Origin: a virus
Length of the DNA: 33,710 bases
Strand: one strand, 5' to 3'
IMG/VR virus record: IMGVR_UViG_3300047678_000345
Location: 1-33,710 of that record
In this document: piece by piece, positions 892-28,160 of the stretch
How the letters are laid out: each line of letters opens with the position of its first letter
Position numbering within the stretch: the stretch's first letter is position 1
Program-made: the position numbers and the translations under genes
The notes under the pieces: model-generated
Told to the model about the DNA's origin: nothing
The model's database searches: none
Seen by the model: the letters and a program-made list of their open reading frames with translations, nothing else

Positions 892-941
892 CTATTTTAT
901 TTAGTGTTGTTAATTCTTTTTGCTTTTAAATAAATACATAG
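892..941 (-). promoter_or_regulatory. Leader signal of the tail tube gene: TATTTATT motif plus hairpin
   Basis: Read on the minus strand, TATTTATT (929-936) lies inside the arm CTATGTATTTATTTA (927-941). Apart from a 3-base bulge this arm pairs over 12 bases with TAAATAAAATAG (892-903). The second arm ends 4 bases before the ATG at 887. This is the clearest minus-strand example of the motif found in front of most plus-strand virion genes. Promoter or RNA function is inferred. Confidence 0.5.
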
Positions 942-985
942 AAAAAAAAATTATTAATCCCATAATATGAGAAAAATAAATATTG

Positions 986-1031
986 AACCTATTTATTTAG
1001 GAGTCGAAAGGCTTATAAACCTCTATAGGTT
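986..1031 (+). promoter_or_regulatory. Leader signal of the first fibre gene
   Basis: AACCTATTTATT (986-997) contains the octamer TATTTATT at 990-997. The arm AACCTAT (986-992) pairs perfectly with ATAGGTT (1025-1031) across a 32-base loop, 32 bases before the ATG at 1064. The spacing is longer than at the other leaders. It faces away from the similar minus-strand signal at 892-941, so this 176-base gap is a divergent promoter region. Confidence 0.45.
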
Positions 1032-1063
1032 ATATTTTTAAGAATTCTATAATTCGAATATAA

Positions 1064-3175
1064 ATGGCATCAGGTCAAACAAGAAATATTGCTGGTATTG
1101 CACCTAAAAAGAGTGCTGTTCCAGGAAAAGTACCCACAGGGTCAACGGTTGGAGAGATATTTTCCAATTTGCCAGACCAAAAACTTTGGGGTTATGACGG
1201 CTCAACTATATTCGAATATGGCGCAAAGTCATTTTTAGGCCTAACTGGCGGAACTATAACAGGAAACACTAGTATTATTGGAAGCTTATCAGCAACCACA
1301 TTTATAAGTGGTTCTACAGATTTATATAACATATTCGCAACAAGTTCAAGTTCGTGGTTGCTTAGTGGAAATACTAATGGAGTAGAAAAATATATTGGTA
1401 CTAATGATAATTTCGCCTTACCATTTAATATTAATGGTGTTGAGGCAATGAGAATTACAAATGAAGGTTCTACTGCAAATCGTATCTTCATAAATTCACC
1501 AACATCAATCGGAGGCTCAAATGCAGGTATTCAATATTCAAACGCATCAACAGCAAATAGAGCGCAAATTAAACTACATTCTTATTTTACAGGAAATTCT
1601 GTTGCAGGTGTAAGTACGCTAACATCTCGTTCAGGAAATATTGGTGTTAACAATGCCGTTGTTAATGGACAAGAATATTCTAAATGGACAGCACAAGCAG
1701 GTGCAACAACAGTTGGTAGCGCACCTATTGCAGGTACATGGGCTTTTATTGCAAATAATGTAAACTCATTAACTGTAACATCAGATTGGAGAGTACAACT
1801 TACAAATTCAGCAGGTACACTTGGTGATAGAGTTTACTTAACAAGCGAAGGCGTATTGAATGTTTATAATGATATTATACCAAACACTACAAGTGTTTAT
1901 AATCTAGGAAGTGATACTAATAAATTTAAGAATGCTTATTTAAGCGGAGGATTAACAGCAAATACGATTAGTGCAACGACAATTTCAGGTGGAACTATTT
2001 TATCGGCTGGTACAGATCTATACAACATTTTCCTTACAACTGCAGACGGAAATGATATTACCAGAGTTCAATCAGGAAGTAATATTATAACAGGAGGGAC
2101 AGGAAATTTACCAACAATTAATTTGGTTTCATCACCATCAATTGATGGATTGACATTCTCAGGAACTGCAAGTGGAGTTGCTTTAAGTGCGACAACTTTT
2201 ACCGCAAACACAGCAACTATCTTAGGCAATAGTGATACTACTGAACTTAAAATTATAGCAAATTCTGCGCAGACAAAAGCATTAATGCTTTTATTAAAAT
2301 CAGATGGTACTGAATTATTAAGACTACATTCAAATGCTTTAGAAAATACATTTTTAGGATTTTCAGCAGGCACCAATACAACTAGTGGGTTATTTAATAC
2401 TTTTCTAGGATCTACCGCTGGCACTGGCAACACTACAGGAGGGGTAAATGTTTTTGTGGGCCACCAAGCAGGATCTGTTATAAGCGGAGGAGCTAGCAAT
2501 ACTTTCGTAGGGGCTGGTGCTGGAAAAATAAAAGTATCAGGAGATTTTAATGTTTATATAGGCGCTAATTCTGGAGGAAATACTATAGCTGGTGATAATA
2601 ACGTTTATGTTGGAGATTGGGCAGGAAGATTTAATTATAGCGGAGCCAACAATACTTATATAGGTCAAGCTTCTGGATATTTAAGTAGTGGTAGTAGTAA
2701 TGTATTTTTAGGTGCTGGGGCAGGTGTTTCTGTATCAGGTTCTAATTTATTATACATAGCAAACACATCAACACCAAATCCTCTTATATGGGGAAATTTT
2801 AGTACAGGAGAAGTAAAAATAAACGGAAGCTTAACTGCAAATACTTTCACAGCAACAACACTGAGTGGTGGAACAATATTAAGTGGTTCAACAAATTTAT
2901 ATCAAATATTTCAGCCATCGGCAGGAATTTTAAAACAAAAAAATGGTTCAGTAACAGGTTCTACTTTTTCAGGAAATCCAAAAAAAGCGACTGTTGCATT
3001 TACGACAAACTTTCCAGATAATAATTATGCTGTAACAGTAACAGGAGAAGCAGATAGAACTTGGACGATAGAATCAAAAACACTAAGTGGATTTACAATA
3101 AATGCAAATGCAAACTTACAGTTTAATAGTAGAAATGTTTTTTGGATGGCAGGGCAAATAGGAGAGAGTAATTAA
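1064..3175 (+). CDS. Tail fibre protein 1, repeat-rich with lectin-like C-terminus
   Basis: A 703-residue Ser/Thr/Gly/Asn-rich fibre protein. The N-terminus (MASGQTRNIAGIAPKKSAVP) differs from the next two fibres and may be the attachment end. Modules of the type LSATT-x-SGGT-x-SGSTNLYxIF occur three times, and one copy of the module TGGTGNLPTINLVSSPS follows the second. Residues about 428-567 form about seven repeats of roughly 18 residues (NTFLGFSAG, NVFVGHQAG, NTFVGAGAG, NVYIGANSG), which suggest a beta-roll or YadA-like stalk. The last 85 residues (from GNPKKATVAFTTNF) are shared with the second fibre and resemble an H-type lectin-like receptor-binding tip; that is inference. It heads the fibre operon 1064-7050 and probably forms trimers that bind the host surface. 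Confidence 0.8.
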   Translation: MASGQTRNIAGIAPKKSAVPGKVPTGSTVGEIFSNLPDQKLWGYDGSTIFEYGAKSFLGLTGGTITGNTSIIGSLSATTFISGSTDLYNIFATSSSSWLLSGNTNGVEKYIGTNDNFALPFNINGVEAMRITNEGSTANRIFINSPTSIGGSNAGIQYSNASTANRAQIKLHSYFTGNSVAGVSTLTSRSGNIGVNNAVVNGQEYSKWTAQAGATTVGSAPIAGTWAFIANNVNSLTVTSDWRVQLTNSAGTLGDRVYLTSEGVLNVYNDIIPNTTSVYNLGSDTNKFKNAYLSGGLTANTISATTISGGTILSAGTDLYNIFLTTADGNDITRVQSGSNIITGGTGNLPTINLVSSPSIDGLTFSGTASGVALSATTFTANTATILGNSDTTELKIIANSAQTKALMLLLKSDGTELLRLHSNALENTFLGFSAGTNTTSGLFNTFLGSTAGTGNTTGGVNVFVGHQAGSVISGGASNTFVGAGAGKIKVSGDFNVYIGANSGGNTIAGDNNVYVGDWAGRFNYSGANNTYIGQASGYLSSGSSNVFLGAGAGVSVSGSNLLYIANTSTPNPLIWGNFSTGEVKINGSLTANTFTATTLSGGTILSGSTNLYQIFQPSAGILKQKNGSVTGSTFSGNPKKATVAFTTNFPDNNYAVTVTGEADRTWTIESKTLSGFTINANANLQFNSRNVFWMAGQIGESN

Positions 3176-3186
3176 TAATTAAATAA

Positions 3187-3205
3187 TATTTATAATAAAA
3201 TAAAT
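3187..3205 (+). promoter_or_regulatory. Leader signal of the second fibre gene
   Basis: TATTTATA lies at 3187-3194. ATTTAT (3188-3193) can pair with ATAAAT (3200-3205) over a 6-base loop, and the second arm ends 1 base before the ATG at 3207. The stem is AT-only and could arise by chance in such DNA, so it is a weaker example of the series. Confidence 0.35.
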
Positions 3206-3206
3206 T

Positions 3207-4439
3207 ATGGGTTTACAAATAAATGATTTAGTAGTAGAAAGTACGTTATCAGCTTCAACGCTGACGGCTACAACTTTATATGTTGGTACAAATAATATTG
3301 GAGGTTCTAGTTCTAGTTTTAATTCATTGTCTGCAACGACACTGAGTGGTGGAACAATTTATTCTGGTGGAACTGATTTATATTCTATTTTCTTAACAAC
3401 ATCAGACGGAAATGATGTGACAAGAGTTCAGCCAGGCTCAAACATAACAACTGGTGGAACAGGAAATTTACCAATAATAAATTTGGCTTCATCTCCTTCT
3501 GTAAACAATTTCACATTTTCAGGAACTGCAACAGGAAATGCGTTATCAGCAACAACACTGAGTGGTGGAACATTATACTCAGGATCAACAAATTTATATT
3601 CTATATTTTCACAAACAGATACTGTTACACGTGTTCAGCCTGGAACAAACATCACAACAGGAGGAACTGCAAATAACCCAACGGTTAATTTGGTTTCATC
3701 TCCTTCAATAAATTCATTGACATTCTCAGGAACTGCAACAGGAAATGTTCTTAGTGCAACTACATTAAGTGCAGGTACATTGTTTTCAGGAAGCACAAAT
3801 TTATATTCTATATTTGCAACCATACCTGACCAGAATGACATAACAAGAGTTCAGCCAGGAACAAACATCACGACTGGTGGAACTGCAAATTTGCCAACGG
3901 TTAATTTGGTTGCATCTCCTTCTATAAATAATTTAACCATATCAGGATTAACGTCTTCCTCAGGAGGAGCAACATTTACTAACTTATCAGGAACAAATAT
4001 TTTTTCAGGAAGTGTAAATCTTCAGACTTATTTCACTACAATACAACAACAATTATTAACAGAAGCAAATTTATCAGGTGCGACATTCACAGGTCAAGTT
4101 AATACTCCAAGCTTATCTGCAACAACATTAAGTGGCGGAACAATATTTTCTGGAAACACAAATTTATATCAAATATTTGCACAAACAGGAAGTACATTAA
4201 TACATAAATCTGGAACAATATCAGGATCGACATTTGCAGGTAATCCAAAAAAGGCAACTGTAACTTTTGCGACTGCATTCGCAAATACAAATTATGCAAT
4301 TACAATATCATCAGATACAAATAGAACTTTTACATGGGAATCTAAAGCGGCTGGAAGTTTTGTAATAAACTCAAATGCGAATACAGCTTTTAATGCTGGA
4401 AATGTAAATTGGACAGCAACAGAATATGGAGAAAAATAA
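3207..4439 (+). CDS. Tail fibre protein 2, paralogue of its neighbours
   Basis: A 410-residue fibre protein made almost wholly of two alternating modules: LSATTLSGGT-x-SGSTNLYSIF (five variants, one ending NLQTYF) and RVQPG-x-NITTGGT-x-N-P (three copies) followed by a short SSPS or ASPS segment. Its N-terminus (MGLQINDLVVESTLSASTLT) matches fibre 3 rather than fibre 1. Its last 85 residues (from GNPKKATVTFATAF) match the tip of fibre 1. It is therefore a mosaic, with the base of one neighbour and the tip of the other. Stop and next start are 3 bases apart, so it is probably cotranslated with the third fibre. A role in adsorption is inferred from composition and context. Confidence 0.8.
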   Translation: MGLQINDLVVESTLSASTLTATTLYVGTNNIGGSSSSFNSLSATTLSGGTIYSGGTDLYSIFLTTSDGNDVTRVQPGSNITTGGTGNLPIINLASSPSVNNFTFSGTATGNALSATTLSGGTLYSGSTNLYSIFSQTDTVTRVQPGTNITTGGTANNPTVNLVSSPSINSLTFSGTATGNVLSATTLSAGTLFSGSTNLYSIFATIPDQNDITRVQPGTNITTGGTANLPTVNLVASPSINNLTISGLTSSSGGATFTNLSGTNIFSGSVNLQTYFTTIQQQLLTEANLSGATFTGQVNTPSLSATTLSGGTIFSGNTNLYQIFAQTGSTLIHKSGTISGSTFAGNPKKATVTFATAFANTNYAITISSDTNRTFTWESKAAGSFVINSNANTAFNAGNVNWTATEYGEK

Positions 4440-4442
4440 AAA

Positions 4443-6266
4443 ATGGCATTAGAAATTGATGATATAAATTTAGGCGGTACACTTTCGGCAACAACGATAA
4501 GTGCAACAACTATTGTGTTTGGTGGACAACCAATACAGAATGTTTTTGTTCAAAACAATATTGCTGGAGGATTTTTGTCAATTTCAGGAGGTACTGTTAC
4601 TGGACAAACTAATTTCGCATTAGGACTTTCCGCAAACACTTTAAGTGGAGGAACGATATTTTCAGGAAATACAAATCTTCAGACTTATTTTAATACAATA
4701 AATGCACAACTTTTAACAAAAGCAAATTTATCAGGTGCAACATTTACAGGAGCAGTTAATACTCCAACATTGAGTTCAACAACACTAAGTGCAACAACAT
4801 TAATCTCAGGTTCAACAAATTTATATTCAATATTTGCCCCATTTGGTTCAGGCGGAGGCGGATCTACAACAAATGTACAACCAGGTTCGAATGTCACAAC
4901 AGGTGGAACATCGAATGCTCCAATTGTAAATGTTGTTTCATCACCTTCATTTAACTCAATAACAGCATCAGGCGCTTCAAGTTTCACGACTTTAAGTGCA
5001 ACAACATTGGTATCTGGTTCAACGAATTTGTATAATATATTTGCGACAATACCTGATCAAAACGATGTTACAAGAGTTCAACCTGGTTCAAACATAACAA
5101 CTGGTGGAACAGTAAATAATCCAACAATAAACCTTACATCCTCTCCGTCTGTAAATAGCATTACTTCATCAGGAGCTTCAAGTTTCACAACTTTAAGTGC
5201 AACAACATTGGTGTCTGGATCAACGAATTTGTATAATATATTTTCAACAACTGACACAAATGATATAACAAGAATACAACCTGGTTCAAATATCACAACA
5301 GGTGGAACAGCAACGAACCCAATTGTGTCTGTTGTTGCATCTCCATCATTTAATGGTTTGACTATATCTGGATTAACAACATCTTCTAGCGGTGCAATAT
5401 TTTTAAGTTTGTCCTCAGATACTTTAACTCTTGACGAAGTTTCAATACCAAGTGCTCCTGTTTCAGCAGCTACTATTTTTGTTAGAAACAAAGCAAATAG
5501 AAGGATGGCAGGTCAAGTAGGTCCTAGCGGAATTGATTATACATTTCAACCTTCCATATATGGAAATAAGATAGCTCTTTGGAATCCGCCAGGAAATTCA
5601 ACAACTGTGCCTGGAGTTTTAGGTATAGCTGCATTAACGGCTACAGGTACTGCAACTGCAAGAAATGTGGCAACAACAAATTTACTTACAAGAACGAAAA
5701 GATTAGCTGTTGTTTCAGCAGTTCCAGCTGGTTCTTTAGCTGGTTATAGGCTTGGTGTAACTCAATATACTGTTGGTGATGGCTCTGGAGCTGGTGGTTT
5801 TATGTATGTAATAAGATTTGGTGTTGCAGATGCTCAAACAGCTACAAGGATGTTTCTGGGATTAAGAAATACAACAGGAGCACCGACTAATGCAGAACCA
5901 TCTGGTTTTACAAACTCTATAGGAGTTGGAAATGGCGCTGGAAATACTAATTTAAGAATTTTTTATGGAGGCTCTGCAGCACAAACGTCAATAGATTTGG
6001 GAGCAAATTTTCCATGTAATACAAATAGTGCTGACTTATATGAATTTACTTTATTTGCACCACCAAACTCAAATAATAGTGTGGGCTATAGAGTAGAAAG
6101 ATTAAATACTGGAGATGTTGCATCAGGTACTTTAACTGGAGTTGCAGGAACTGCACTTCCTTCAAGTACAACACTTTTGACATTAAATGATTTTAGAACA
6201 AATAATGGAAGTACTGGTGCTGTTACTTTAGATTATGTCTCTATTTATATTGAAACTGATTATTAA
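4443..6266 (+). CDS. Tail fibre protein 3 with a distinct C-terminal receptor-binding domain
   Basis: A 607-residue fibre protein. Residues 1 to about 315 use the same LSATT / SGSTNLYxIF and QPGSN-x-TTGGT modules as the two genes before it, including two nearly identical copies at DNA level (4974-5042 and 5175-5243). From about residue 335 (NRRMAGQVGPSGIDYTFQPS) the protein switches to a different domain of about 270 residues, containing LWNPPGNSTTVPGVLG and ending in LDYVSIYIETDY. I take this as a globular receptor-binding head, a type often seen at the end of phage fibres; this is from general familiarity, not a search. The upstream gene ends 3 bases earlier. TATTTATA at 6242-6249, inside the end of this gene, could serve the next gene. 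Confidence 0.8.
   Translation: MALEIDDINLGGTLSATTISATTIVFGGQPIQNVFVQNNIAGGFLSISGGTVTGQTNFALGLSANTLSGGTIFSGNTNLQTYFNTINAQLLTKANLSGATFTGAVNTPTLSSTTLSATTLISGSTNLYSIFAPFGSGGGGSTTNVQPGSNVTTGGTSNAPIVNVVSSPSFNSITASGASSFTTLSATTLVSGSTNLYNIFATIPDQNDVTRVQPGSNITTGGTVNNPTINLTSSPSVNSITSSGASSFTTLSATTLVSGSTNLYNIFSTTDTNDITRIQPGSNITTGGTATNPIVSVVASPSFNGLTISGLTTSSSGAIFLSLSSDTLTLDEVSIPSAPVSAATIFVRNKANRRMAGQVGPSGIDYTFQPSIYGNKIALWNPPGNSTTVPGVLGIAALTATGTATARNVATTNLLTRTKRLAVVSAVPAGSLAGYRLGVTQYTVGDGSGAGGFMYVIRFGVADAQTATRMFLGLRNTTGAPTNAEPSGFTNSIGVGNGAGNTNLRIFYGGSAAQTSIDLGANFPCNTNSADLYEFTLFAPPNSNNSVGYRVERLNTGDVASGTLTGVAGTALPSSTTLLTLNDFRTNNGSTGAVTLDYVSIYIETDY
4974..5042 (+). repeat. Direct repeat copy A inside fibre gene 3
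   Basis: A 69-base segment that recurs at 5175-5243 with three mismatches. It encodes the module beginning ASSFTTLSATTLVSGSTNLY. The near identity of two copies 201 bases apart points to recent tandem duplication or gene conversion among fibre modules. Confidence 0.8.
5175..5243 (+). repeat. Direct repeat copy B inside fibre gene 3
   Basis: Second copy of the 69-base segment at 4974-5042, in the same reading frame. It differs at three positions. Confidence 0.8.
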
Positions 6267-6276
6267 AAAATGAATT

Positions 6277-7050
6277 ATGTTATTTGATATTAAAGCAAGA
6301 AAATACGAGTTAATGGATGGTCAATTATATATTGAATTTATTCCATGCAATGAGGAGTTAAAAGATTTATTATATAACGGAGGTACTTATGATATTTTAA
6401 ATAACTCAATTGAAAATACAATAAAATATCACAAGCCGATAGTTAGAGATGAGTTATATAGTTTATTACCAGATAGTGTTAAATCAGGTTATACAAATAG
6501 TCAATTTAAAATTAATGACTCAATAGAAAACCCTTCAACTGTTGATTATGACATTTTGGGTTTTAATAAACAAAGAATAATTATAAAAGGGGAATTAAAA
6601 CAAACAAATTATTATAAAACATATATTCCATCTTCTCAAACCTATAGCGACTTGGTTGTTTCTGAATTTAGAGATTATACAAGAAATGAGATAGGTTTAG
6701 TGCAGTCTAGAAATATGTCTTGCAATTGGTTGTTGAATGATGATACTACTGGTTTAACATTATCATTTACAAAATACTATTCTCCAGAAGAATCAATTGG
6801 AGAAGGTATTGATAGAAGAAATAACATGCTTGCATTTGCTAAGACATCTTTACTTGATGGATTAAAAGCAATTTATGGAGAGCCATTAAATCAAACATAT
6901 GCATTTGATATGTTGACTTCTGTAAAAACTCAAATGGAATATTTTTCACAAGGATATACCCAACCATTAAGAGATGCGGTAAGCGCATCAACAAAGCCTT
7001 ATTTGACAGTAGGAATAAAAGAAGCAATAATAGAACAATTAACATTTTAA
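6277..7050 (+). CDS. Hypothetical protein of the fibre operon
   Basis: A 257-residue soluble protein that I do not recognise. It starts MLFDIKARKYELMDGQLYIE and lacks the Ser/Thr fibre modules, signal peptide or membrane segments. The first 60 residues and the segment near YYKTYIPSSQTYSDL look beta-rich; the last 80 are more helical (AFAKTSLLDGLKAIYGEPLN). It sits 10 bases after fibre 3 and 10 bases before a membrane protein gene, so it belongs to the same transcript. A fibre-associated structural or assembly role is a guess from position only. A TATTTATA at 6242-6249 lies 27 bases ahead of the start. Confidence 0.6.
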   Translation: MLFDIKARKYELMDGQLYIEFIPCNEELKDLLYNGGTYDILNNSIENTIKYHKPIVRDELYSLLPDSVKSGYTNSQFKINDSIENPSTVDYDILGFNKQRIIIKGELKQTNYYKTYIPSSQTYSDLVVSEFRDYTRNEIGLVQSRNMSCNWLLNDDTTGLTLSFTKYYSPEESIGEGIDRRNNMLAFAKTSLLDGLKAIYGEPLNQTYAFDMLTSVKTQMEYFSQGYTQPLRDAVSASTKPYLTVGIKEAIIEQLTF

Positions 7051-7060
7051 AAATAAAAAT

Positions 7061-7552
7061 ATGAAAGATTTATTTATATCAATATGGGCTCTTGTATGGG
7101 CATTATTAGTGAGTAGTTTAATGTTCTCAATAGGAACTTTATATTCACTAGGATATTCAGTGTGGTACACTGTGACTCTTAAGAAGCCTTTAGCATTTTT
7201 TCAATTTTGGTGGAGACTAGTTGATGGATTTGCATCAGCATTGGCAAATCTTATTTATGAAGCAGCTTACTCGTTAGATTTGGGTTGGAATGTTAATGGG
7301 GAAATTATTGAAGACATGGTTACAACTGAAGAGAATACAGAATTTTCTAAAAAGAATATTTCTGTCTCAGCTACAATTGGAAAGCTTCAAGTTGAAAACA
7401 AATTAAATAAGTTTGGTTTAAAATTCAGCAAGCTATTAAACTTCTTTTTTGGCCAAAAACAACATGCTGTTGATGCTTGGCATTATACTCAAGCAAAAAA
7501 AGATTTAAAAGCACAATATTTTATTAAAGAAAAAAGAAAACTTAAAAAGTAA
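7061..7552 (+). CDS. Small membrane protein
   Basis: A 163-residue protein with a strongly hydrophobic N-terminal third: one clear transmembrane segment (about residues 5-28, ISIWALVWALLVSSLMFSIG) and an aromatic segment FFQFWWRLVDGFASALANLI (about 46-65) that may be a second, amphipathic or re-entrant one. The rest is soluble and very basic, ending in KEKRKLKK. No lipobox or cleavable signal peptide is obvious. It sits between the fibre operon and a small beta-rich protein. It might act on the host envelope during late infection or be a virion membrane-contact protein. The family is not recognised. Confidence 0.6.
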   Translation: MKDLFISIWALVWALLVSSLMFSIGTLYSLGYSVWYTVTLKKPLAFFQFWWRLVDGFASALANLIYEAAYSLDLGWNVNGEIIEDMVTTEENTEFSKKNISVSATIGKLQVENKLNKFGLKFSKLLNFFFGQKQHAVDAWHYTQAKKDLKAQYFIKEKRKLKK

Positions 7553-7556
7553 ATTC

Positions 7557-7564
7557 TATTTATT
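7557..7564 (+). promoter_or_regulatory. TATTTATT motif before the 7568 gene
   Basis: CTATTTATT ends only 3 bases before the ATG at 7568. If it is a -10-like element the transcript would have almost no leader. No convincing hairpin accompanies it here. Motif recurrence is the only support. Confidence 0.4.
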
Positions 7565-7567
7565 AAT

Positions 7568-7876
7568 ATGAATATAAGAACCGCACAAACAGTATACGAA
7601 CAAGTAATGTCTTTTGACGTGGATAATAATCCAGTGTCAGGAGCTACGTTTGACGCTGTCTTATATTTAAATAATACCATATACACAGGATCTACTCCTG
7701 CATATTCACTTACAGACGCATCTAGAGGAATGTTTACATTCTCCTGGTCTGCAGATACTTTTGGAGACTATCAATTATATACAAAAAACAACGCCACAGG
7801 CGTTATATTTGTTTCTAACTCTATTGGAGTAAGACCTGATAGTGAGTTTGATACCACCGTTTATATTGGCCTGTAA
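7568..7876 (+). CDS. Small Ig-like virion protein, hypothetical
   Basis: A 102-residue acidic, beta-rich protein. The segments YSLTDASRGMFTFSWSADTF and GDYQLYTKN follow the pattern of a small Ig-like sandwich seen in fibre- and baseplate-linked phage proteins (turn, Gly, strand, GDY, strand). The gene cut off at the left edge of the window has a similar pattern, so the two may be distant paralogues. It has its own TATTTATT motif and lies just upstream of the terminase. Virion decoration or baseplate role is inferred; it could equally be an assembly factor. Confidence 0.55.
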   Translation: MNIRTAQTVYEQVMSFDVDNNPVSGATFDAVLYLNNTIYTGSTPAYSLTDASRGMFTFSWSADTFGDYQLYTKNNATGVIFVSNSIGVRPDSEFDTTVYIGL

Positions 7877-7893
7877 TCCAATATAAATTATTC

Positions 7894-7918
7894 TAACCTA
7901 TTTATTCATAAAAGGTTA
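7894..7918 (+). promoter_or_regulatory. Leader signal of the terminase gene
   Basis: TATTTATT at 7899-7906 lies within a hairpin. TAACCT (7894-7899) pairs with AGGTTA (7913-7918) and, after one bulged A, TTTA (7901-7904) pairs with TAAA (7909-7912) over a TTCA loop. The stem ends 3 bases before the ATG at 7922. The G and C pairs make chance pairing less likely than at the AT-only sites. Confidence 0.5.
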
Positions 7919-7921
7919 CAA

Positions 7922-8245
7922 ATGACATCTCAACAAATCTTAGAAGAGTATATAAAGTGCGCTAAAAGTCCTGTTTATTTCCTTAATAACTATGGCTATG
8001 TATTTGATGCTACAGAGAAGAAGGTAAAAAAAATGGTATGTTTTAAATATCAAGAAAATTGTGTTGACATATTTCATAAAGAACAAAATTCAATCATTCT
8101 TAAGAGTAGACAAACTGGATTATCTGTTATAACAGCAGGTTATGTAGCTTGGAGATTGATGTTTAGATATGATGAAAAAATATTGATCATCGCCAATGAT
8201 GGAGCTGGAGCAAGACGATTTTTAGCTACAGTAAAACTGTTGTAA
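7922..8245 (+). CDS. terL: Large terminase, N-terminal ATPase fragment (frame broken)
   Basis: This 107-residue frame is the front of a T4 gp17-type large terminase, the motor ATPase and nuclease that packages DNA into the prohead. Residues 62-68 (SRQTGLS) are the Walker A loop in the deviant form lacking the usual Lys, common in phage terminases; the aligned T4 loop is SRQLGKT. ILIIANDGAGARRFLATVK follows as the next strand and helix. The frame then stops at 8243-8245, and the rest of the protein continues in the -1 frame from about 8236. Compared with T4 gp17, about a dozen residues are missing between this point and the strand before the ASSP motif. That fits a small out-of-frame deletion, an assembly error or, less likely, ribosomal frameshifting at the four A residues 8233-8236. 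Confidence 0.8.
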   Translation: MTSQQILEEYIKCAKSPVYFLNNYGYVFDATEKKVKKMVCFKYQENCVDIFHKEQNSIILKSRQTGLSVITAGYVAWRLMFRYDEKILIIANDGAGARRFLATVKLL

Positions 8246-9600
8246 CAAACAACCAAACAAAGTTAGAATTTTCAAACAAGTCATGGGTAGAAGCCAAAGC
8301 TTCAAGTCCAAATGCTGGTCGTGGAGATTCATTAACAATGCTTGTGCTTGATGAGACTGCATTTATTAAAGATGCTGAAGCTATTTGGATGGCTGCTGGT
8401 ATGGCCCTCTCAGCTACAAAAGGAAAGTGTATAATGATTTCCACTCCAAATGGAACAGGAAATTTATATCACAGAACATGGGTTGGTGCCACCAAAAAAG
8501 AAAATGACTTTAAAACACTTACTGTACACTGGACTCAAAATCCACAATCTTCAATTGGATTGGTGTTCAACAAAAACATTGATGGGAAAGAAGAGGCTTG
8601 GAGCCCATGGTATGAAGAACAATGTAGAAGAATGAATTATGATAGTGTTAAAATTGCACAAGAGCTTGACTTATCATTTGAAGGATCTAAATATCTTGTT
8701 ATTGAACAAGTATTAATTGATAAATACGAAAATAAAGTTAGAGACCAAAGGCCAAACTTTTTTATCAGATACGATTTCGCATTTAAAAATACACTCCAAG
8801 CTGGAAGTTTTGTTCAAGACGAAACAAGTTTTCATGTCTGGAAAAGACCTGAACAGGGAAGGCATTATATAATTGGTTGTGACGTTGCCCGTGGAGATGG
8901 AAAAGATTATTCAACAATACAAGTTTTTGATGCAGAGACATTAGAACAAGTGGCTGAATATAAAGATAAGATTGGGGTTGACTTATTTCCTTATTTAATT
9001 GATTGGGTTGGTAGAACATATAATACTGCTTATTTAGTTGTCGAATGTAACTCTTTTGGTTTAGCAGTTGCTTTCTCATTGAGAGATGCATTAAAATATC
9101 CAAGAATGTTTTATTCAAAAAACATACAAGATATTCACGTTAGAGCAATGGATTATAAGGTTTCTGAAGGAGTTGAAATTCCTGGTATTCAAACTACAGT
9201 TAAAACAAGACCGTTGTACATAAAATCTTTGGTTGAACACATGAGAGAGAACACACTAATTCTCCACTCTCCAAGATTAACAGCTGAATTCGGCACGTTT
9301 GTTATGGCTGGTAATAAACCACAACACGAAGCTGGTTATAATGATGACTTAATATTTGCAACTGCAATGGCTCTCTATATTAGAGATACAGAATATAATA
9401 ATGTTGTTGCAGCAGATAGTATGTATAAATCAATGCTTGGTGCTATATCCTTTAGTACAAATAGCACAGTAGGCAGGGTAAATAATAATCCGCAAGTTCC
9501 TAACAGAGATATTAACATACCAGAAGGTGGAAGTGGGTTGTTTATAAACAATTCAAACCAACAAGGACTAGATGATGATTTAGGTTGGCTTTTAAAATAA
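8236..9600 (+). CDS. terL: Large terminase, C-terminal ATPase and nuclease part
   Basis: Continuation of the terminase; open from 8200 in this frame, homologous from about 8236, with the first in-frame ATG at 8338, too far inside the ATPase fold to be a real start. Visible are KASSPNAGRGDS, Walker B LTMLVLDETAF with catalytic Glu, and coupling motif STPNGTGN (all near the start). The nuclease domain shows its three acidic sites, counted from the ATG at 8338: D182 in GCDVARGDGKD, E236 in VVECNSFG and D336/D337 in YNDDLIFA, matching T4 gp17 D401, E458 and D542. All sites are intact, so the C-terminal part looks functional if joined to the upstream fragment. Total joined length would be about 560 residues against 610 in T4. 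Confidence 0.85.
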   Translation, partial: TVVTNNQTKLEFSNKSWVEAKASSPNAGRGDSLTMLVLDETAFIKDAEAIWMAAGMALSATKGKCIMISTPNGTGNLYHRTWVGATKKENDFKTLTVHWTQNPQSSIGLVFNKNIDGKEEAWSPWYEEQCRRMNYDSVKIAQELDLSFEGSKYLVIEQVLIDKYENKVRDQRPNFFIRYDFAFKNTLQAGSFVQDETSFHVWKRPEQGRHYIIGCDVARGDGKDYSTIQVFDAETLEQVAEYKDKIGVDLFPYLIDWVGRTYNTAYLVVECNSFGLAVAFSLRDALKYPRMFYSKNIQDIHVRAMDYKVSEGVEIPGIQTTVKTRPLYIKSLVEHMRENTLILHSPRLTAEFGTFVMAGNKPQHEAGYNDDLIFATAMALYIRDTEYNNVVAADSMYKSMLGAISFSTNSTVGRVNNNPQVPNRDINIPEGGSGLFINNSNQQGLDDDLGWLLK

Positions 9601-12193: not shown

Positions 12194-12225
12194 AAAGCTC
12201 CATTGTATGGAGCTTTTGTTTTTTT
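12194..12225 (+). terminator. Rho-independent terminator ending the portal operon
   Basis: A 9-bp perfect stem, AAAGCTCCA (12194-12202) with TGGAGCTTT (12208-12216), 5-base loop, then TGTTTTTTT. It follows the small gene after the portal and overlaps the -33 element of the next promoter. Confidence 0.8.
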
Positions 12226-12246
12226 AGATAACTTTCAGTATATTTG
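12215..12246 (+). promoter_or_regulatory. Host-type (Bacteroidota sigma-A) promoter of the polymerase operon
   Basis: TTTG at 12215-12218 and TATATTTG at 12239-12246 are separated by 20 bases, an exact match to the Bacteroidota housekeeping consensus TTTG-N19-21-TAnnTTTG. Transcription would begin near 12253, just ahead of the ATG at 12266. This decides the polymerase start, because the in-frame ATG at 12203 lies upstream of the promoter. It differs from the TATTTATT signals of the virion genes and suggests early or middle expression by host RNA polymerase. Confidence 0.7.
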
Positions 12247-17382: not shown

Positions 17383-17390
17383 TATTTATT
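17383..17390 (+). promoter_or_regulatory. TATTTATT motif before the 17410 gene
   Basis: CCTATTTATT ends 19 bases before the ATG at 17410. The motif lies in a 14-base palindrome (ATTTATTAATAAAT, 17384-17397). It heads the plus-strand set of probable internal virion proteins. Confidence 0.45.
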
Positions 17391-19128: not shown

Positions 19129-19145
19129 CATATTTATAAAATATG
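19129..19145 (+). promoter_or_regulatory. Leader signal of the HNH gene, hairpin including the start codon
   Basis: CATATTT (19129-19135) pairs perfectly with AAATATG (19139-19145) over a 3-base loop, and the second arm includes the ATG at 19143. TATTTATA lies at 19131-19138. If transcribed, this hairpin would hide the start codon. Confidence 0.45.
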
Positions 19146-20011: not shown

Positions 20012-20038
20012 TATTTATCTAAACACCAAAAAAGATAA
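20012..20038 (+). promoter_or_regulatory. Leader signal of the baseplate gene pair
   Basis: TATTTATC at 20012-20019. TTATCT (20015-20020) pairs with AGATAA (20033-20038) over a 12-base loop, ending 2 bases before the ATG at 20041. Here the last motif base is C and the partner arm carries the matching G. Confidence 0.4.
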
Positions 20039-20040
20039 TT

Positions 20041-21938: not shown

Positions 21939-21951
21939 ATTAATAAAAAAT

Positions 21952-21975
21952 AACCTATTTATACTAAAATAGGTT
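21952..21975 (+). promoter_or_regulatory. Leader hairpin of the 21981 gene
   Basis: A perfect 9-bp stem, AACCTATTT (21952-21960) with AAATAGGTT (21967-21975), and a 6-base loop ATACTA. It encloses TATTTATA (21956-21963) and ends 5 bases before the ATG at 21981. No T-run follows, so it is not a terminator. It is one of the two strongest examples of the leader series. Confidence 0.55.
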
Positions 21976-21980
21976 TCATA

Positions 21981-23990
21981 ATGAACCATACAGACTTTTT
22001 CCAAGAATATCAAAATAGAAAGAAGACTTCTGAAGATCTTTTTAAAGGCCTACAGTCCAAGTTCGTATTAAACGAAGGTGAGATTGATGAGGCTCTGTTT
22101 GGGCTTGTTAAAGGCGCTAAGGATAAGGAAAAGGACCTTTCAGATTACTATCATAAAATTACAACCAACGCACCAAACTGGCAATCTTATAAGCTTAATT
22201 TAGGCGGAGGCAAATTTGTTGAAATAGGTAAGACTACTGATGAAGAAAAAAAACAGGCATGGAATGAGCTTTTGAAACAGGCGAGTGCTGATAAATTTAA
22301 AGGTGGCATTGCTAATGAAAAAGGAATTGTTGTATATGATTCTAAAGTAAAGTCGCAGACACAACAACCACAACAACCACAACAAACAGGCGGAACCCAA
22401 CCCTCAAACTATCAAATAGAAAGAAAAGGAAAAACTTATTATTTTGGTAAAAACCAAAACGAAAGATATACAGCAGAAGTTGTATCTCCAGGAGATGCGG
22501 CTATGATGAATTATGATTGGCAACACAGTGAGTTAAAATATTTATTTGAGCCACCACTTAAATTAATAGGCAAGCAAATGGCTTTTGACTTAAAACAAGG
22601 AATTGTAATGAATTTTGTTGGAAAATGGGAAGGTCCATTTGTTGGAAATACTTTTGCTGGAATTTATGATGGCGAATATTTTAAAGGTAATTATAAATGG
22701 GACAATACCGATTTTAATCCTAGTAAGAAAACTGTAAAAGAAAAAGCAATTGCTTTTGTTGATGGCACGTTTTCAGACAGAACAAATACTGGAATCTTAG
22801 GATCTCCCAACATAGTGTCTACAGTAGATAATTTTCATTTAATACAAATACCAGTTGGTTATTCTATTGAAGTTTTGACAAACAAACAACTTAGACATAC
22901 AATCACAACTACAAAAAGACTAGACGGAGTAAATTCAAATTTTACTTATTATGTTTATTTAGGATATGAAGCTGGAGAACAAGAACCATTGCCTGTAACT
23001 TTATCTTGGGAACAAATAAGAATGGATTTTGACAACTATCAAATAAATTTAAATATAAAAAATATTCCTGGACTTTTTAAATTACAATCAGATGAGAATA
23101 TAATTGAATTAAAAATAGTGAAAGCTGGAACCCCTCCTGTCTTTACTAAAAAAGAAGCTTTTGATGATGCAAAAACATATTCAGAAGATTTACCTTTGTT
23201 ATCTGGTTTGAAATCTATTAGCCCTAGTGTTAAAAAATCTGAAGTTGATTTTGATTTGAGTGATGATGCTGATTTTGAAAATTTTTTAAAATCAAAAAAT
23301 TATATAAATTCTCCTCAGTTTTTAAAAGATTTAGAAACTATAGGAAAAGGAATAGATTATGGTAAAGTAAAAAATATATCTAAATATCCTGATTTGGTTA
23401 AAATATTTACTCCAGATGTTTTATCTGAAGGTTTTAGTGTAGATGATGATTATGGTAGTGGATATGGAGATTATGAATCTGTATATCAAACTAATGATCC
23501 TGCTAAGACAGAAACATTTAAAAAACTTAAACAAAATTTAGAAGCTCAGTATAAAGATTATTTTCAAAAATATGGACAATACCCAGATGAATTTAAAGAA
23601 CAAATGAAAATGATTTCTAAAGCTTATGGCCCAAAGAAAAAAAAGAAAATTGTTTCAAACCCGTCAAATAATACCTCTTTAGCACAACCACAAGTTCAAA
23701 AAACATCTGAAGATGCAGCTCTTAATAGATTAGATAATTTTGTAAAATATTTTGTAGAAAAAATTCAGTCTAAAACAAAAGACATTGGGAAAACACAAGA
23801 AATAAAAAATTTCATTTTTAATGCAATTAAACAAAGATTGCAACAATATAAACAAACAGCTAAAAAAACAGTTGAACCTGTAAATATTGCTAATGTTAAC
23901 CCTTCATCTAAACAACAAATTGGCAAGCCTTTTACAGCCGAATCTATAATAAGGCTTAAGATAAGGGGTATTTTAAAGAAAATGTTGTAA
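21981..23990 (+). CDS. Large probable virion protein with [LI]xE N-terminal signal
   Basis: A 669-residue protein of unknown function. The first 32 residues form a charged helix ending FVLNE before Gly (L30-N31-E32, then G33), a possible capsid-targeting peptide with prohead-protease site. A Gln/Pro linker (QQPQQPQQT) lies near residue 135. A central beta-rich region (about 195-270) with GKWEGPFVGNTFAGIYDGEY and FKGNYKW has MORN-like spacing of Gly and aromatic residues. The C-terminal part is helical and basic, ending AESIIRLKIRGILKKML. It stands alone between a leader hairpin (21952) and another (24000). A head-internal or ejected protein is plausible; enzymatic motifs are not seen. Confidence 0.6.
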   Translation: MNHTDFFQEYQNRKKTSEDLFKGLQSKFVLNEGEIDEALFGLVKGAKDKEKDLSDYYHKITTNAPNWQSYKLNLGGGKFVEIGKTTDEEKKQAWNELLKQASADKFKGGIANEKGIVVYDSKVKSQTQQPQQPQQTGGTQPSNYQIERKGKTYYFGKNQNERYTAEVVSPGDAAMMNYDWQHSELKYLFEPPLKLIGKQMAFDLKQGIVMNFVGKWEGPFVGNTFAGIYDGEYFKGNYKWDNTDFNPSKKTVKEKAIAFVDGTFSDRTNTGILGSPNIVSTVDNFHLIQIPVGYSIEVLTNKQLRHTITTTKRLDGVNSNFTYYVYLGYEAGEQEPLPVTLSWEQIRMDFDNYQINLNIKNIPGLFKLQSDENIIELKIVKAGTPPVFTKKEAFDDAKTYSEDLPLLSGLKSISPSVKKSEVDFDLSDDADFENFLKSKNYINSPQFLKDLETIGKGIDYGKVKNISKYPDLVKIFTPDVLSEGFSVDDDYGSGYGDYESVYQTNDPAKTETFKKLKQNLEAQYKDYFQKYGQYPDEFKEQMKMISKAYGPKKKKKIVSNPSNNTSLAQPQVQKTSEDAALNRLDNFVKYFVEKIQSKTKDIGKTQEIKNFIFNAIKQRLQQYKQTAKKTVEPVNIANVNPSSKQQIGKPFTAESIIRLKIRGILKKML

Positions 23991-23999
23991 CTTTTCTGT

Positions 24000-24026
24000 G
24001 TTTATATCGTATAATAAGATATAAAC
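24000..24026 (+). promoter_or_regulatory. Leader hairpin of the 24035 gene
   Basis: A perfect 9-bp inverted repeat, GTTTATATC (24000-24008) with GATATAAAC (24018-24026), loop of 9 bases, ending 8 bases before the ATG at 24035. There is no T-run and no exact TATTTATT octamer, so here the hairpin is kept without the usual motif. It could also be an operator. Confidence 0.5.
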
Positions 24027-24034
24027 GTAATAAT

Positions 24035-24556
24035 ATGAATCCAGGTGTAAAAAAATTAATAAGTGGTCTAATACTATTAGGATTAGCTATTTATGCTCAT
24101 AATACAATAGGATATAGTGGAAATATAGATGTTGATAAGTGGGCTCAAGGTTATTTGGTGCCACTTATGGGCAAGGATAGTGGGTTGTTTTTTTCAGCCT
24201 TAATAAATGCTGTTTTAGGGGTGCTTATTGTTGTGTTTTTTCTTAAAGGACTATATAGAATAGTGACTTTTAACAAATTCATTGATCAGCTTGAAGGTGG
24301 AAATACTTCTGGACATGAGTATGTTTTTGGGCCAAGTACTTCTAAAGATTTTTCAGAATCAGCTATCGACAAAGCTCTTAAATATAGAGATGCTAAAATG
24401 GATACTATGAGTAATGAATCGGCTGCAAAATTCTATAAAGAAACTTCTGGCTTAAATAATTTAGCTAGCATAAATAGTGGTACTTCTAACTATTTAAATG
24501 CCAAAATATCAAACATGAGTAATGAAGATGCAATAAGCTTTTTGCGTGGTAAATAA
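24035..24556 (+). CDS. Two-span membrane protein with duplicated C-terminal motif
   Basis: A 173-residue protein. Transmembrane segments are likely at about 7-24 (KLISGLILLGLAIYAHNTIG region) and 52-73 (FFSALINAVLGVLIVVFFLK), joined by a short loop GNIDVDKWAQGYLVP. The soluble C-terminal 90 residues contain a repeated motif, AKMDTMSNESAAKFY and AKISNMSNEDAISFL. It is followed by a strong terminator. No holin or spanin signature is certain; the two-span layout would be compatible with a holin, but the long soluble tail is unusual for one. Family not recognised. Confidence 0.6.
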   Translation: MNPGVKKLISGLILLGLAIYAHNTIGYSGNIDVDKWAQGYLVPLMGKDSGLFFSALINAVLGVLIVVFFLKGLYRIVTFNKFIDQLEGGNTSGHEYVFGPSTSKDFSESAIDKALKYRDAKMDTMSNESAAKFYKETSGLNNLASINSGTSNYLNAKISNMSNEDAISFLRGK

Positions 24557-24581
24557 GTAAAAAACATATATTTTGATCTTT

Positions 24582-24616
24582 AAAAACCAACCTTTATTTT
24601 AGGTTGGTTTTTTTTT
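24582..24616 (+). terminator. Strong rho-independent terminator
   Basis: An 11-bp perfect stem, AAAAACCAACC (24582-24592) with GGTTGGTTTTT (24602-24612), 9-base loop, inside a T tract that runs to 24616. It separates the membrane protein gene from the tape measure gene. Confidence 0.9.
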
Positions 24617-24643
24617 ATTTTCTATTTATTAAAAATAGAGAAT
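24617..24643 (+). promoter_or_regulatory. Leader hairpin of the tape measure gene
   Basis: ATTTTCTATTT (24617-24627) pairs with AAATAGAGAAT (24633-24643), 11 pairs including one G-U wobble, loop ATTAA, ending 1 base before the ATG at 24645. TATTTATT is at 24623-24630. It is the longest stem of the series and abuts the start codon. Confidence 0.55.
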
Positions 24644-24644
24644 A

Positions 24645-27600
24645 ATGGCTGATAATAAGAAGCAGTATGAAGAAGCTATGAAGAATTTAGATTCTTTGCT
24701 TAAAAAGCAAAAGGCTCTAAATCAGTCATTGGAGGGAATGAAAACTTCATGGAATGCAATCAGCACAGAAGTATTTAAAATGGGTGGGGCAGAGTGGTTT
24801 AAAAAAGTCCCAAAATCAGCAGAAGATATTCAAAAATCTGTTGATAAAATCTCTGATATGCGAAAGGGTCTTGAAGATGTTGGCAATGAATTTGACAAAG
24901 CTTTAAATCAAGATAAAAATCTACAAAGCCTTCAAAGTAATATTAAAGATACATTTAAAAAATGGGAAGTTCATATTACAGATAACCAGTTAACAGGGAA
25001 AAAAGCTAGTGATTTCAGAGCACAAGCTCAAGAAGATTTTATTAAGCAATTAAGAGTGGACTATAAAGAGATGGGCGCTTTTTCTGATGCTGAATTAAAA
25101 AATCTTGTTAAACAATTTAATACAACAGATGATATTGCTATGGCAGTATCAAAATTGCCAAGCGCTCATAAAAAAGTAATAAATTCATTAGCAGAGGAAA
25201 AAGATTTGTTAAATCAAAGTGTAGACAAGGCTGATGAAATGATTCAAAAAATAAGAGAAGAACAATCTGAATTAAAAAAATTAGATAAAGATGTTTTTAG
25301 TATTAGTGCTGGTTTGTCAAAATTTTCAACAATTTTAATGAAAGAAGGTCTTGGCGCTTTAAAAGTCTCCGATCAAGAATTATCAACAGTTCAGAGAAAT
25401 ACAGGAATTGCGATGAAAGATAATGCTGCGGCATTTGGCGACCTCACAGGAAGGGTTTCTCAGTTTGGAATGTCAGTTAAAGACGCTGGAGAAATGATGG
25501 CAGGAATGTCTGATGAATTAAACACAACAAATTTTTCTGTATTATCTAAAGCGACAGAAGACTTTGCGTCTATAGCAGGCGCAACAGGAGCTGCCTCAAA
25601 AGAAATTACAACCATATCAGGAGAGTTAATGAGAATGGGAAAATCTTCTGGAGAGGTTAAAGATTATTTTGAAGGTGCTGATAAGATGGCAAGAAGTTTT
25701 GGCATAAGTTCTAAGAAAGCAATAGATGGAATTTCTAGAAACTTAACAAAAATGAGAACAATGGGTTTTGTTGGTGGAGAAAAATCATTAGCAAAAATGG
25801 TTGTTACTGCTGAGAAGCTTAATATGAATGTTGATGAAATATTTGACGTTGCAAAAAAAGCCAGAAACATTGAAGGTGCTATGGAAATGGCATCAGAATT
25901 ACAATTAGCAGGAGGATCATTTGCAAATATAAATCCAATGGATTTATTAGCTGCAGCAAGAAAAGGCCCTGCAGAACTTCAGAAAATATTAACTACAATG
26001 GGTAAAGACGTTGGAAGATTTAATAAAGAAACTGGAGAATATGAATTTGATCCTGTTGATATAGAAAGATTACAAATAGTTGCTGATGCTACAGGGCAAT
26101 CTCTTGATAGCATAACTAAAGGGATTCAAAAAAGTGGATTGGATAAAGAAAAAATAGAACCATTTGCTGGAATGATGGATGGATTAGATGAGGCAGATAA
26201 AGCATTGGCTCAATCTTCTCTTGGTGATATGATGAAATTTAATGAAAAAAATGGGAAGTTTGAAATTGATGCTGATAATGATTTAGCAAAAAAAATGGGG
26301 ATAACTAGTCTAGATCAGATTGGAGAAAAAGAGATTAAGGCAATGCTAGAAAAAAAGAAAAATGATGAAAAAACACTTGAAGAACAAAACAAAAGAAATC
26401 AATCGTTTGAAGAGTCGCTTAAAAATTTCTGGGGAGCATTAGAAAGTATATTCACTGTTTTCGAGCCTGTGTTAAACATATTAACAGGCGCATTACAAGG
26501 CATCACCAAAGTTGTTGGTAAGTTGCCAGGATGGGGTAAGTGGATTGTTGGGTCTTTGGTTGTAGCTTTTGCTTTGTTTGGAACAAGCGTTGGCGCTTTT
26601 ATAACACAAGGTATAGGTAAGTTTGCTAGCAGTATAAAAGATTTCGGATCAGGAATTATGAAATTTATAAAGAGTCCAATAGCTACAATGAAAGGTGCTT
26701 TTACAAAAAAAACAAGCCCTACAGATACAGGTACAGATGGAGCTCCTGCAGGTCCAAAAGCAGGCGTTGGAGAAGGGTTTAAAAGTTTAGCCGAAGGATT
26801 AGGTGCAATGGGAACAACTCCTGGGGTACTTAAGGGTATTTTAGCAGTTGCTTTATCAGGTCCTGCATTTTTATTATTTGTACCTGCATTGCCTGGACTT
26901 ATGGTTATGGCATTAATCGGAACAGTTGCTGATCCTATTAAAAAAGGGTTTACTGCTATTGCAGAAGGTTTAGCTGCATTTGGAAATACGGGTGGAATAT
27001 TTAAAGGCATAGGCGCATTAGCTCTTGCTGCTATTCCTTTGGCTATATTTGGACCACTTTCTTTATTGTTATTGCCTCTTGCTCTTATTGGTGTTTTAGC
27101 TCCTCTTATAGAGGCGGGATTTAAAGCAATAGCCACAGGTATTGGATTTATGGGAAGTAATTTAGGAAATATCATTAAAGGTTCACTAGCAATATTGATT
27201 GTCGGGGCTGCTATGATTCCTTTTGTTCTCGCTGCCACATATATGTCAGATATTGATTGGATGAGCGTATTGAAAGGTGTTGGAGTTATGGCGCTAGTTT
27301 TAGTCGGTTTAATAGGAGTTGGTATAATGGCATCTACTGTAGGTTGGCTAATATTGTTAGGGGCAGGCTTATTGGCTGCCGCAGGTCTAGCTATGATGGT
27401 CGCCGCTGCTGGCTTAAGTAGTATGGGTGAGGCATTTGCGATGTTATCAGAAATTGATGGATCTAGTCTAAGTTCTTTAGCAGGAGTAATGTTCTTGCTT
27501 GGTCCTGGATTATTGGCATTTTCTTTTGCTATGTTAGCACTGAGTTTTGTAAACTTTGATTCTTTAAAACAATTAGGAACATCTCTTGAACAATTAGGAA

Positions 27601-28061
27601 CAGTTAATGTTGGAAATTTAGCAGCTTTAGGATCTGCTTTAGGTAGTATGGCCCCTGGATTGATGAGTTTTGGTTTATCGGCTATGTTGTTCGCTAATCC
27701 AATTGCATTATTTGGAATTTGGGCTATGACTTCTGCGTTGTCTGGGTTAGTTGCAGTAATGACTCCATTAGCATCTGCTTTGACCCTAGGATCAACTTCT
27801 TTAAATAGTTTTGCCTCAGGTCTAGATAGATTGGCGACTGCCGCTAATGCGCTTTCTGATGATAAATTAGAGAGGTTACAAAAAATATCTGAAGCTATGG
27901 CTTCTGCTTCTGCTTCTGGAAATGTTGCCAATGTAATGACTGCGGTTGCAGGTGGAGCAGGTGGTGGTAGTGCTGAACCTAGAAAGATTGAAATTGACAT
28001 AAAACTAAACGGTAGAGATGTACAATACCAAATAGTAAAAGATACTGCTGTCCACAAATAA
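24645..28061 (+). CDS. Tail tape measure protein
   Basis: At 1138 residues this is the protein that sets tail length and is later ejected; T4 gp29 has 590, so the tail may be longer. Residues 1-240 and about 550-600 are charged coiled coil (KKNDEKTLEEQNKRNQSFEE). From about 600 to 1080 the protein is strongly hydrophobic with Gly and Ala, as usual in tape measures. Within this part a block starts GFKSLAEGLGAMG, GFTAIAEGLAAFG and GFKAIATGIGFMG at residues 711, 768 and 825, an exact 57-residue period. The C-terminus ends in a small soluble domain (KIEIDIKLNGRDVQYQIV). It is a single-gene unit between terminators at 24582 and 28087. The strand opposite its hydrophobic part is open by chance. Confidence 0.88.
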   Translation: MADNKKQYEEAMKNLDSLLKKQKALNQSLEGMKTSWNAISTEVFKMGGAEWFKKVPKSAEDIQKSVDKISDMRKGLEDVGNEFDKALNQDKNLQSLQSNIKDTFKKWEVHITDNQLTGKKASDFRAQAQEDFIKQLRVDYKEMGAFSDAELKNLVKQFNTTDDIAMAVSKLPSAHKKVINSLAEEKDLLNQSVDKADEMIQKIREEQSELKKLDKDVFSISAGLSKFSTILMKEGLGALKVSDQELSTVQRNTGIAMKDNAAAFGDLTGRVSQFGMSVKDAGEMMAGMSDELNTTNFSVLSKATEDFASIAGATGAASKEITTISGELMRMGKSSGEVKDYFEGADKMARSFGISSKKAIDGISRNLTKMRTMGFVGGEKSLAKMVVTAEKLNMNVDEIFDVAKKARNIEGAMEMASELQLAGGSFANINPMDLLAAARKGPAELQKILTTMGKDVGRFNKETGEYEFDPVDIERLQIVADATGQSLDSITKGIQKSGLDKEKIEPFAGMMDGLDEADKALAQSSLGDMMKFNEKNGKFEIDADNDLAKKMGITSLDQIGEKEIKAMLEKKKNDEKTLEEQNKRNQSFEESLKNFWGALESIFTVFEPVLNILTGALQGITKVVGKLPGWGKWIVGSLVVAFALFGTSVGAFITQGIGKFASSIKDFGSGIMKFIKSPIATMKGAFTKKTSPTDTGTDGAPAGPKAGVGEGFKSLAEGLGAMGTTPGVLKGILAVALSGPAFLLFVPALPGLMVMALIGTVADPIKKGFTAIAEGLAAFGNTGGIFKGIGALALAAIPLAIFGPLSLLLLPLALIGVLAPLIEAGFKAIATGIGFMGSNLGNIIKGSLAILIVGAAMIPFVLAATYMSDIDWMSVLKGVGVMALVLVGLIGVGIMASTVGWLILLGAGLLAAAGLAMMVAAAGLSSMGEAFAMLSEIDGSSLSSLAGVMFLLGPGLLAFSFAMLALSFVNFDSLKQLGTSLEQLGTVNVGNLAALGSALGSMAPGLMSFGLSAMLFANPIALFGIWAMTSALSGLVAVMTPLASALTLGSTSLNSFASGLDRLATAANALSDDKLERLQKISEAMASASASGNVANVMTAVAGGAGGGSAEPRKIEIDIKLNGRDVQYQIVKDTAVHK

Positions 28062-28086
28062 TCAAAAAATGACATTATTATCAACC

Positions 28087-28117
28087 AAACCTCTTTAATT
28101 TAAGGAGGTTTTTTTTT
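28087..28117 (+). terminator. Rho-independent terminator after the tape measure gene
   Basis: AAACCTC (28087-28093) pairs with GAGGTTT (28105-28111); inner AT and GU pairs can extend the stem. A T-run follows to 28117. It ends the tape measure transcript. Confidence 0.85.
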
Positions 28118-28136
28118 ATAATATTTTTTTAAACGA

Positions 28137-28160
28137 TTATTTATAAATAAATGTAAATAG
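28137..28160 (+). promoter_or_regulatory. Leader signal of the 22-residue-repeat baseplate gene
   Basis: TATTTATA at 28138-28145 lies in a 14-base palindrome TTATTTATAAATAA (28137-28150). TTATTTA (28137-28143) can also pair with TAAATAG (28154-28160), one G-U wobble, ending 3 bases before the ATG at 28164. AT-only, so individually weak. Confidence 0.4.

Follow-up and report, generated by a model that had tools for sequence, protein, structure and literature searches.

How the virion genes of a T4-like phage are switched on, and why several of them carry an inverted repeat directly before the start codon, is the question raised by a stretch of viral DNA of 33,710 nucleotides (nt) (IMG/VR record IMGVR_UViG_3300047678_000345, positions 1 to 33,710; this whole stretch is called the window here). 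A first-pass annotation had reported, at ten leaders, a hairpin overlapping the motif TATTTAT just upstream of the ATG, and had considered control of translation start, protection of mRNA ends or a symmetric DNA-binding site as its role. In this study, both motif and hairpin were analyzed in the window and in related phages. TATTTAT most likely serves as the -10 element of a T4-type late promoter whose transcripts begin 11-12 nt after the first T of the motif. On balance, we lean towards the view that a minority of the late genes combine this promoter with a start-site hairpin which, as in T4, would silence read-through RNA.

The 33.7-kb fragment has a GC content of 32% and comes from a T4-like phage with a contractile tail. 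It encodes a tail tube protein, the large terminase subunit (terL), a portal protein, a DNA polymerase, and endonuclease VII-like and baseplate-hub-like proteins. Among named phages, the portal protein was best matched by those of Microcystis phage Mel-JY01 and Flavobacterium phage immuto, half of the protein aligning at 40-45% identity, and 52 portal-bearing contigs in IMG/VR were closer than these. Thirteen of the 52 records, complete or large parts, were used as relatives together with the cultured phage immuto. At megablast level, the window DNA showed no similarity to known phages, and Rfam gave no match.

Within 426 leaders from the first relatives, a set still containing redundancy, TATTTAT was present in 224 (29 expected) and CTATTTA in 144 (7.4 expected). 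The octamer CTATTTAT reached a density of 3.43 per kb in sense leaders of the relatives, 0.23 per kb in antisense leaders and 0.049 per kb in genes, which corresponds to a 15-fold enrichment in sense versus antisense leaders and a roughly 70-fold enrichment in leaders versus genes. For immuto, 18 of the 35 leaders in the virion-gene half contained the motif compared to 9 of 64 elsewhere (p = 1e-4). Alignment of 162 nonredundant sites revealed an A at position +11 in 88% and at position +12 in 77% of the cases, counted from the first T of the motif, as well as a T/A bias at -10 to -7. The distance from motif to ATG was bimodal (n = 360), with a broad mode at 20-30 nt and a sharp mode at 11-12 nt, where 22 and 15 genes were found, with none at 10 nt and three at 13 nt. 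Since the ATG of these short-spaced genes falls where the others have AA, their spacing fits a transcription start at the A of the ATG. The conserved AA together with this gene class thus argues for a -10 box with a start at +11/+12; late timing and the start itself are suggested by these patterns. Leaderless or nearly leaderless late mRNAs are predicted for the 37 short-spaced genes in the relatives, and for open reading frames (ORFs) 7568 and 19143 in the window. No description of late promoters for T4-like phages of Bacteroidota was found in the literature searched; with CTATTTAT and a predicted distance of 11-12 nt to the start, transcription starts could be tested directly in a large phage group.

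A candidate for the late sigma factor reading this promoter is the protein family of immuto gp118, which is very common in phages (at least 600 IMG/VR matches). Immuto gp118 (L133:28174-28872) and the product of L104:10911-11783 belong to this one family and share a stretch resembling sigma region 2, with weak similarity to T4 gp55. With the profile phrog_234, only immuto gp118 was matched (E = 0.008), and a profile comparison with T4 gp55 was weak.

All ten inverted repeats described by the first-pass annotation were found at their coordinates or within a few bases, with the reported arms and distances to the ATG. They are listed here together with two further leaders bearing the motif.

7894..7918, plus strand: repeat TAACCT..AGGTTA before terL (ORF 7922); TATTTAT at 7899-7905, predicted start at ~7910-7911; stem kept in relatives.
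21952..21975, plus strand: perfect repeat of 9 base pairs (bp), AACCTATTT/AAATAGGTT, before ORF 21981; TATTTAT at 21956-21962, predicted start at ~21967.
24620..24642, plus strand: repeat TTCTATTT/AAATAG(A)GAA before ORF 24645; TATTTAT at 24623-24629, predicted start at ~24634.
24000..24026, plus strand: perfect 9-bp repeat GTTTATATC/GATATAAAC before ORF 24035; no TATTTAT, CGTATAA at 24008-24014.
20012..20038, plus strand: repeat TATATTTATCT...AGATAA before the baseplate-hub-like ORF 20041; TATTTAT at 20012-20018, predicted start at ~20023.
19129..19145, plus strand: repeat CATATTT/AAATATG before and into ORF 19143; TATTTAT at 19131-19137, 12 nt before the ATG; stem not above chance.
3187..3205, plus strand: TATTTAT at 3187-3193 and repeat ATTTAT/ATAAAT before ORF 3207; stem not above chance.
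28137..28160, plus strand: AT-only palindrome before ORF 28164; TATTTAT at 28138-28144, kept in orthologues; stem not above chance.
892..941, minus strand: long-loop repeat before the tail tube ORF 887-399; TATTTAT at 930-936 on the minus strand; shuffle p = 0.076.
986..1031, plus strand: repeat AACCTAT/ATAGGTT, 32 nt before ORF 1064; TATTTAT at 990-996; coordinates confirmed.
7557..7563, plus strand: TATTTAT upstream of ORF 7568, 11 nt from its ATG; no stem of note, late transcript predicted to be leaderless.
17383..17389, plus strand: TATTTAT 27 nt upstream of ORF 17410; near the ATG, no stem of note.

For the window leaders, perfect stem length near the ATG was compared with dinucleotide shuffles, and folding energy was expressed as the z-score of the minimum free energy. 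Perfect stems were unusually long only at ORFs 21981 (9 bp, p = 0.007) and 24035 (9 bp, p = 0.017), while the folding energies gave z-scores of -3.1 for 24645, -2.8 for 21981, -2.5 for 24035, -2.1 for 20041 and -1.5 for 7922. The shuffle check proposed with the initial claim was thereby passed by 21981 and 24035 through stem length and by 24645 and 20041 through folding energy; terL is borderline in shuffles alone and supported by its relatives. The shuffle search was limited to the region near the ATG, and the 986-1031 repeat of ORF 1064 lies outside of it. Combined, the ten listed leaders gave a Fisher p of 0.011, an optimistic value because they had been picked by eye, and the other 15 window leaders gave p = 0.98. 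The hairpin cases in the window would be terL, 21981, 24645 and, with less certainty, 20041, along with 24035, which carries a second promoter class. The 21981 leader is identical in a close relative (L219), the cognate arms of 24645 pair better than every swap, and TATCT/AGATA of 20041 is retained in relatives, in one of them with a G-U pair. Overlap of hairpin and TATTTAT thus stood in part: the motif itself is far above chance in the relatives, 24035 has CGTATAA in its place, 17410 and 7568 have the motif without a strong stem, and portal ORF 9649 has neither. The promoter motif is a general feature of the family, the hairpin one of a subset.

Two observations on individual leaders may be added. 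Portal leaders of the relatives mostly lack TATTTAT near the ATG and have a conserved TATATTT instead; in one clade, CTATTTA lies farther upstream, at the terL stop. In the leader of ORF 1064, local pairing is possible for the 3' arm as well (AACCTCTATAGGTT), and CCTA/TAGG repeats occur in orthologous leaders, too. This gene family also has a near-palindrome GAATT..AATTC (1040-1060) just before the ATG, conserved in L035, L037, L059 and L090 and located after the local hairpin and a run of T's, which is possibly an attenuator or an element of its own.

The pairing between promoter and leader was then assessed family-wide. The pairing energy (E) of the promoter flank plus TATTT with the leader was compared with that obtained after exchanging leaders between genes of similar length. 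Strong pairing (E <= -6) was found for 15 of the 162 promoters, five times the 3.0 expected from the length-matched swaps, and when each of the 87 gene families contributed a single leader, the values were 8.2 versus 1.3 expected (standard deviation 1.1). Swap controls using the first 25 nt of the gene or the segment -18..-7 gave no signal. The complement of the 4-nt flank plus T was found downstream in 14 leaders versus 3.7 expected when the flank holds G or C, and flanks without G or C showed no such excess.

The terL leader provides the clearest pairing in relatives. For 20 distinct terL leaders, cognate halves outpaired permuted halves (p = 0.0009), the arms occurring as AACC/GGTT, AAGC/GCTT, TTACCC/GGGTAA and CCCTATTT/AAATAGGG. 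The ten nearest leaders share a 13-bp stem in which 93.8% of cells are paired, with one exchanged pair (G-C/C-G) and G-U replacements at four positions. The suggestion that the arms resemble covariation is borne out for terL and by the modest family-wide excess, and holds for this subset only; the orthologues of 21981 and 24645 are too few for covariation. In one terL clade (L022, L029, L040, L053 and others), an invariant TTTTACCCC directly precedes TATTTAT, which was not seen at other genes. The terL reading frame itself is shifted in the window (ORFs 7922-8245 and 8338-9600, together spanning 7922-9600), while relatives have one intact gene of ~573-589 codons; the split is due to either a mutation or an assembly error.

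A second promoter class is represented by CGTATAA with GNAAC-WTTTT located ~12-21 nt upstream, which was found in 37 distinct leaders of the relatives and has its own leaderless spacing class at 12-13 nt. The example in the window is AAC-TTTT...CGTATA at 23989-24013 before ORF 24035, where CGTATAA overlaps the end of the 5' arm and occupies most of the loop. It is also located at a hairpin loop at L067 5828 and L064 7767. Excess pairing in this class (7 versus 3.0 leaders at E <= -5, n = 25) is suggestive only.

From these observed features, namely motif, strand bias, spacing, excess pairing and terL covariation, the following mechanism may be proposed. The 5' arm would consist of the promoter core and its upstream flank, and the 3' arm of the short 5' leader immediately ahead of the ATG. 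RNA reading through from upstream genes would carry both arms, fold and tie up the translation start, while RNA begun at the late promoter would lack the 5' arm and stay open. As transcription would start after the 5' arm, the hairpin could form only in read-through RNA and not in the promoter's own mRNA, which argues against the earlier suggestion that it protects mRNA 5' ends. Given the predicted starts, terL, 21981 and 24645 have a 5' arm overlapping or upstream of the promoter. The 3' arms end 0-8 nt before the ATG, and no Shine-Dalgarno sequence is apparent. Flavobacterium mRNAs likewise lack Shine-Dalgarno sequences, and structure around the start lowers their translation (PMC6847099); since starts are tuned by local structure in these bacteria, a stem at this distance from the ATG could plausibly repress. 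Of the roles named at the outset, control of translation start appears the likeliest, in the restricted form of a hairpin in read-through RNA whose 5' arm overlaps the promoter.

Several results weigh against this mechanism. The hairpin had been assigned to most virion leaders; this applies to a subset only, as five of the ten listed stems were not shown to exceed chance, those of 3207, 19143, 28164 and 399 being no stronger in dinucleotide shuffles than AT-rich sequence gives, and a convincing stem occurs in only about one tenth of the motif leaders family-wide. Orthologues of the tail tube gene, 24645 and 28164 retain the motif and mostly not the stem; for the tail tube, the motif is kept in 11 orthologous leaders and the long stem in the closest relatives only. 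In immuto leaders, no stems above chance were detected, and several members of one terL clade (e.g. L022, L033, L121) are without a stable stem. The terL covariation comprises one doubly changed pair plus G-U changes in related, not independent sequences. Leaders without TATTTAT are also over-rich in local stems (39 versus 21 and 35 versus 14), and an excess of stems is thus not peculiar to this promoter; only part of it is explained by terminators (12 of 62) and by the second promoter class. Moreover, the stem does not usually include the AUG, hairpin leaders and others hardly differ in how accessible -8..+3 is predicted to be in read-through RNA (0.48 versus 0.51), and hairpins are not significantly more frequent behind co-directional genes, a common arrangement here (12 of 103 versus 3 of 55, p = 0.26).

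These findings can also be read such that the late promoter is real and the stems are a functionless by-product of a T-rich core upstream, an A-rich leader downstream and template-switch mutation perfecting near-palindromes. Half of the ten listed stems not exceeding shuffles, orthologues of most genes keeping the motif and not the stem, the stem excess in leaders without the motif, and immuto managing without stems all agree with such an origin, which we regard as possible and yet doubtful: swaps that keep composition still leave a fivefold excess, this excess is seen only where the flank carries G or C and is absent for neighbouring segments, and the terL pairing is kept through G-U intermediates. 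In a further reading, the promoter is located farther upstream and the main mRNA includes both TATTTAT and the stem, whose effect on stability or translation would be exerted at the 5' end of this mRNA; we consider this very improbable. The placement near the ATG and the AT- or T-rich stretches upstream of the motif would suit this arrangement, but AA at +11/+12, and the genes whose ATG falls exactly there, point to a start downstream of the 5' arm, and the motif resembles the T4 late -10 box in size and place. A symmetric DNA site, at which a dimeric phage regulator would bind the inverted repeat and control the overlapping promoter, is very improbable despite the operator-like overlap of arms and promoter core and the operator over the late promoter of T4 I-TevI (PMC2988022), because the element is strongly strand-specific (3.43 versus 0.23 per kb), the terL stem accommodates G-U pairs, loop length varies widely, and arms differing from gene to gene could hardly all be read by a single protein.

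If the start-site hairpins act as in T4 gene e, the same timing trick would be used without a Shine-Dalgarno sequence to hide, which bears on the choice of start codons in hosts of this kind. Promoter cores inside start-site hairpins might even be a general timing device in phages of non-Shine-Dalgarno hosts, covering many virion genes and at least two promoter classes (CTATTTAT and CGTATAA), with only own-promoter RNA being translated; such a generalization is speculative and rather unlikely.

With respect to known systems, the Bacteroidota housekeeping promoter (TTTG / TANNTTTG) differs from the element at the virion genes. In its strict form TTTG...TANNTTTG, it occurs only once in the window, at 12215-12246 before the DNA polymerase gene, which for this reason likely starts at ATG 12266 rather than at TTG 12203. 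This promoter and the relatives (immuto and Rhodothermus phage RM378) suggest a Bacteroidota bacterium as host. In T4 late promoters, an AT box of 8 bp precedes the start by one helical turn, with AT-rich sequence after it (PMC2988020). Such promoters are read by a gp55-family sigma factor together with gp33 and the sliding clamp. As in T4 (TATAAATA, sigma gp55), the box found here is short, AT-rich, strand-specific and located upstream of putative late genes, about one helical turn (~11-13 nt) before the predicted start, with AT-rich sequence downstream, no conserved -35 element and enrichment before virion genes. It differs from the T4 consensus TATAAATA in its sequence, the enriched octamer being CTATTTAT, and in the strong T/A bias at -10 to -7. 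As the consensus differs, the TATTTAT element appears to work like a T4 late promoter and is not filed in the same class.

The first-pass annotation knew of no such general element in T4 leaders, which is incorrect: at genes e, soc, 49, I-TevI, I-TevII, I-TevIII and segB, the 5' arm of a start-site hairpin contains or adjoins a late promoter (PMC3014915, PMC2988022). The longer early RNA of gene e folds and is translated ~100-fold less, the late RNA lacking the 5' arm (PMC3014915), and I-TevI and others have the same arrangement (PMC2988022). In the T4 sequence, several of these hairpins are visible, gene e reading CCTTC-TATAAATA-CTTAGGAGG. The swap test recovered several known T4 hairpins and gave 10 versus 9.0 from swaps, a comparison that is uninformative in T4 because purine-rich Shine-Dalgarno sequences let swapped halves pair equally well. 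The likeness to the T4 hairpins (e, soc, 49, I-TevI, I-TevII and segB) and to mobE of phage Aeh1 consists in a late promoter in the 5' arm or inside a hairpin before the start codon. In contrast to T4, the hairpins predicted here lack a Shine-Dalgarno sequence, have weaker, AT-rich stems and another promoter sequence, and are located at virion and packaging genes. We thus consider the element ordinary in kind and new in its setting: a T4-like late promoter with a different sequence, combined at some genes with promoter-in-stem hairpins, in phages whose hosts do without Shine-Dalgarno pairing.

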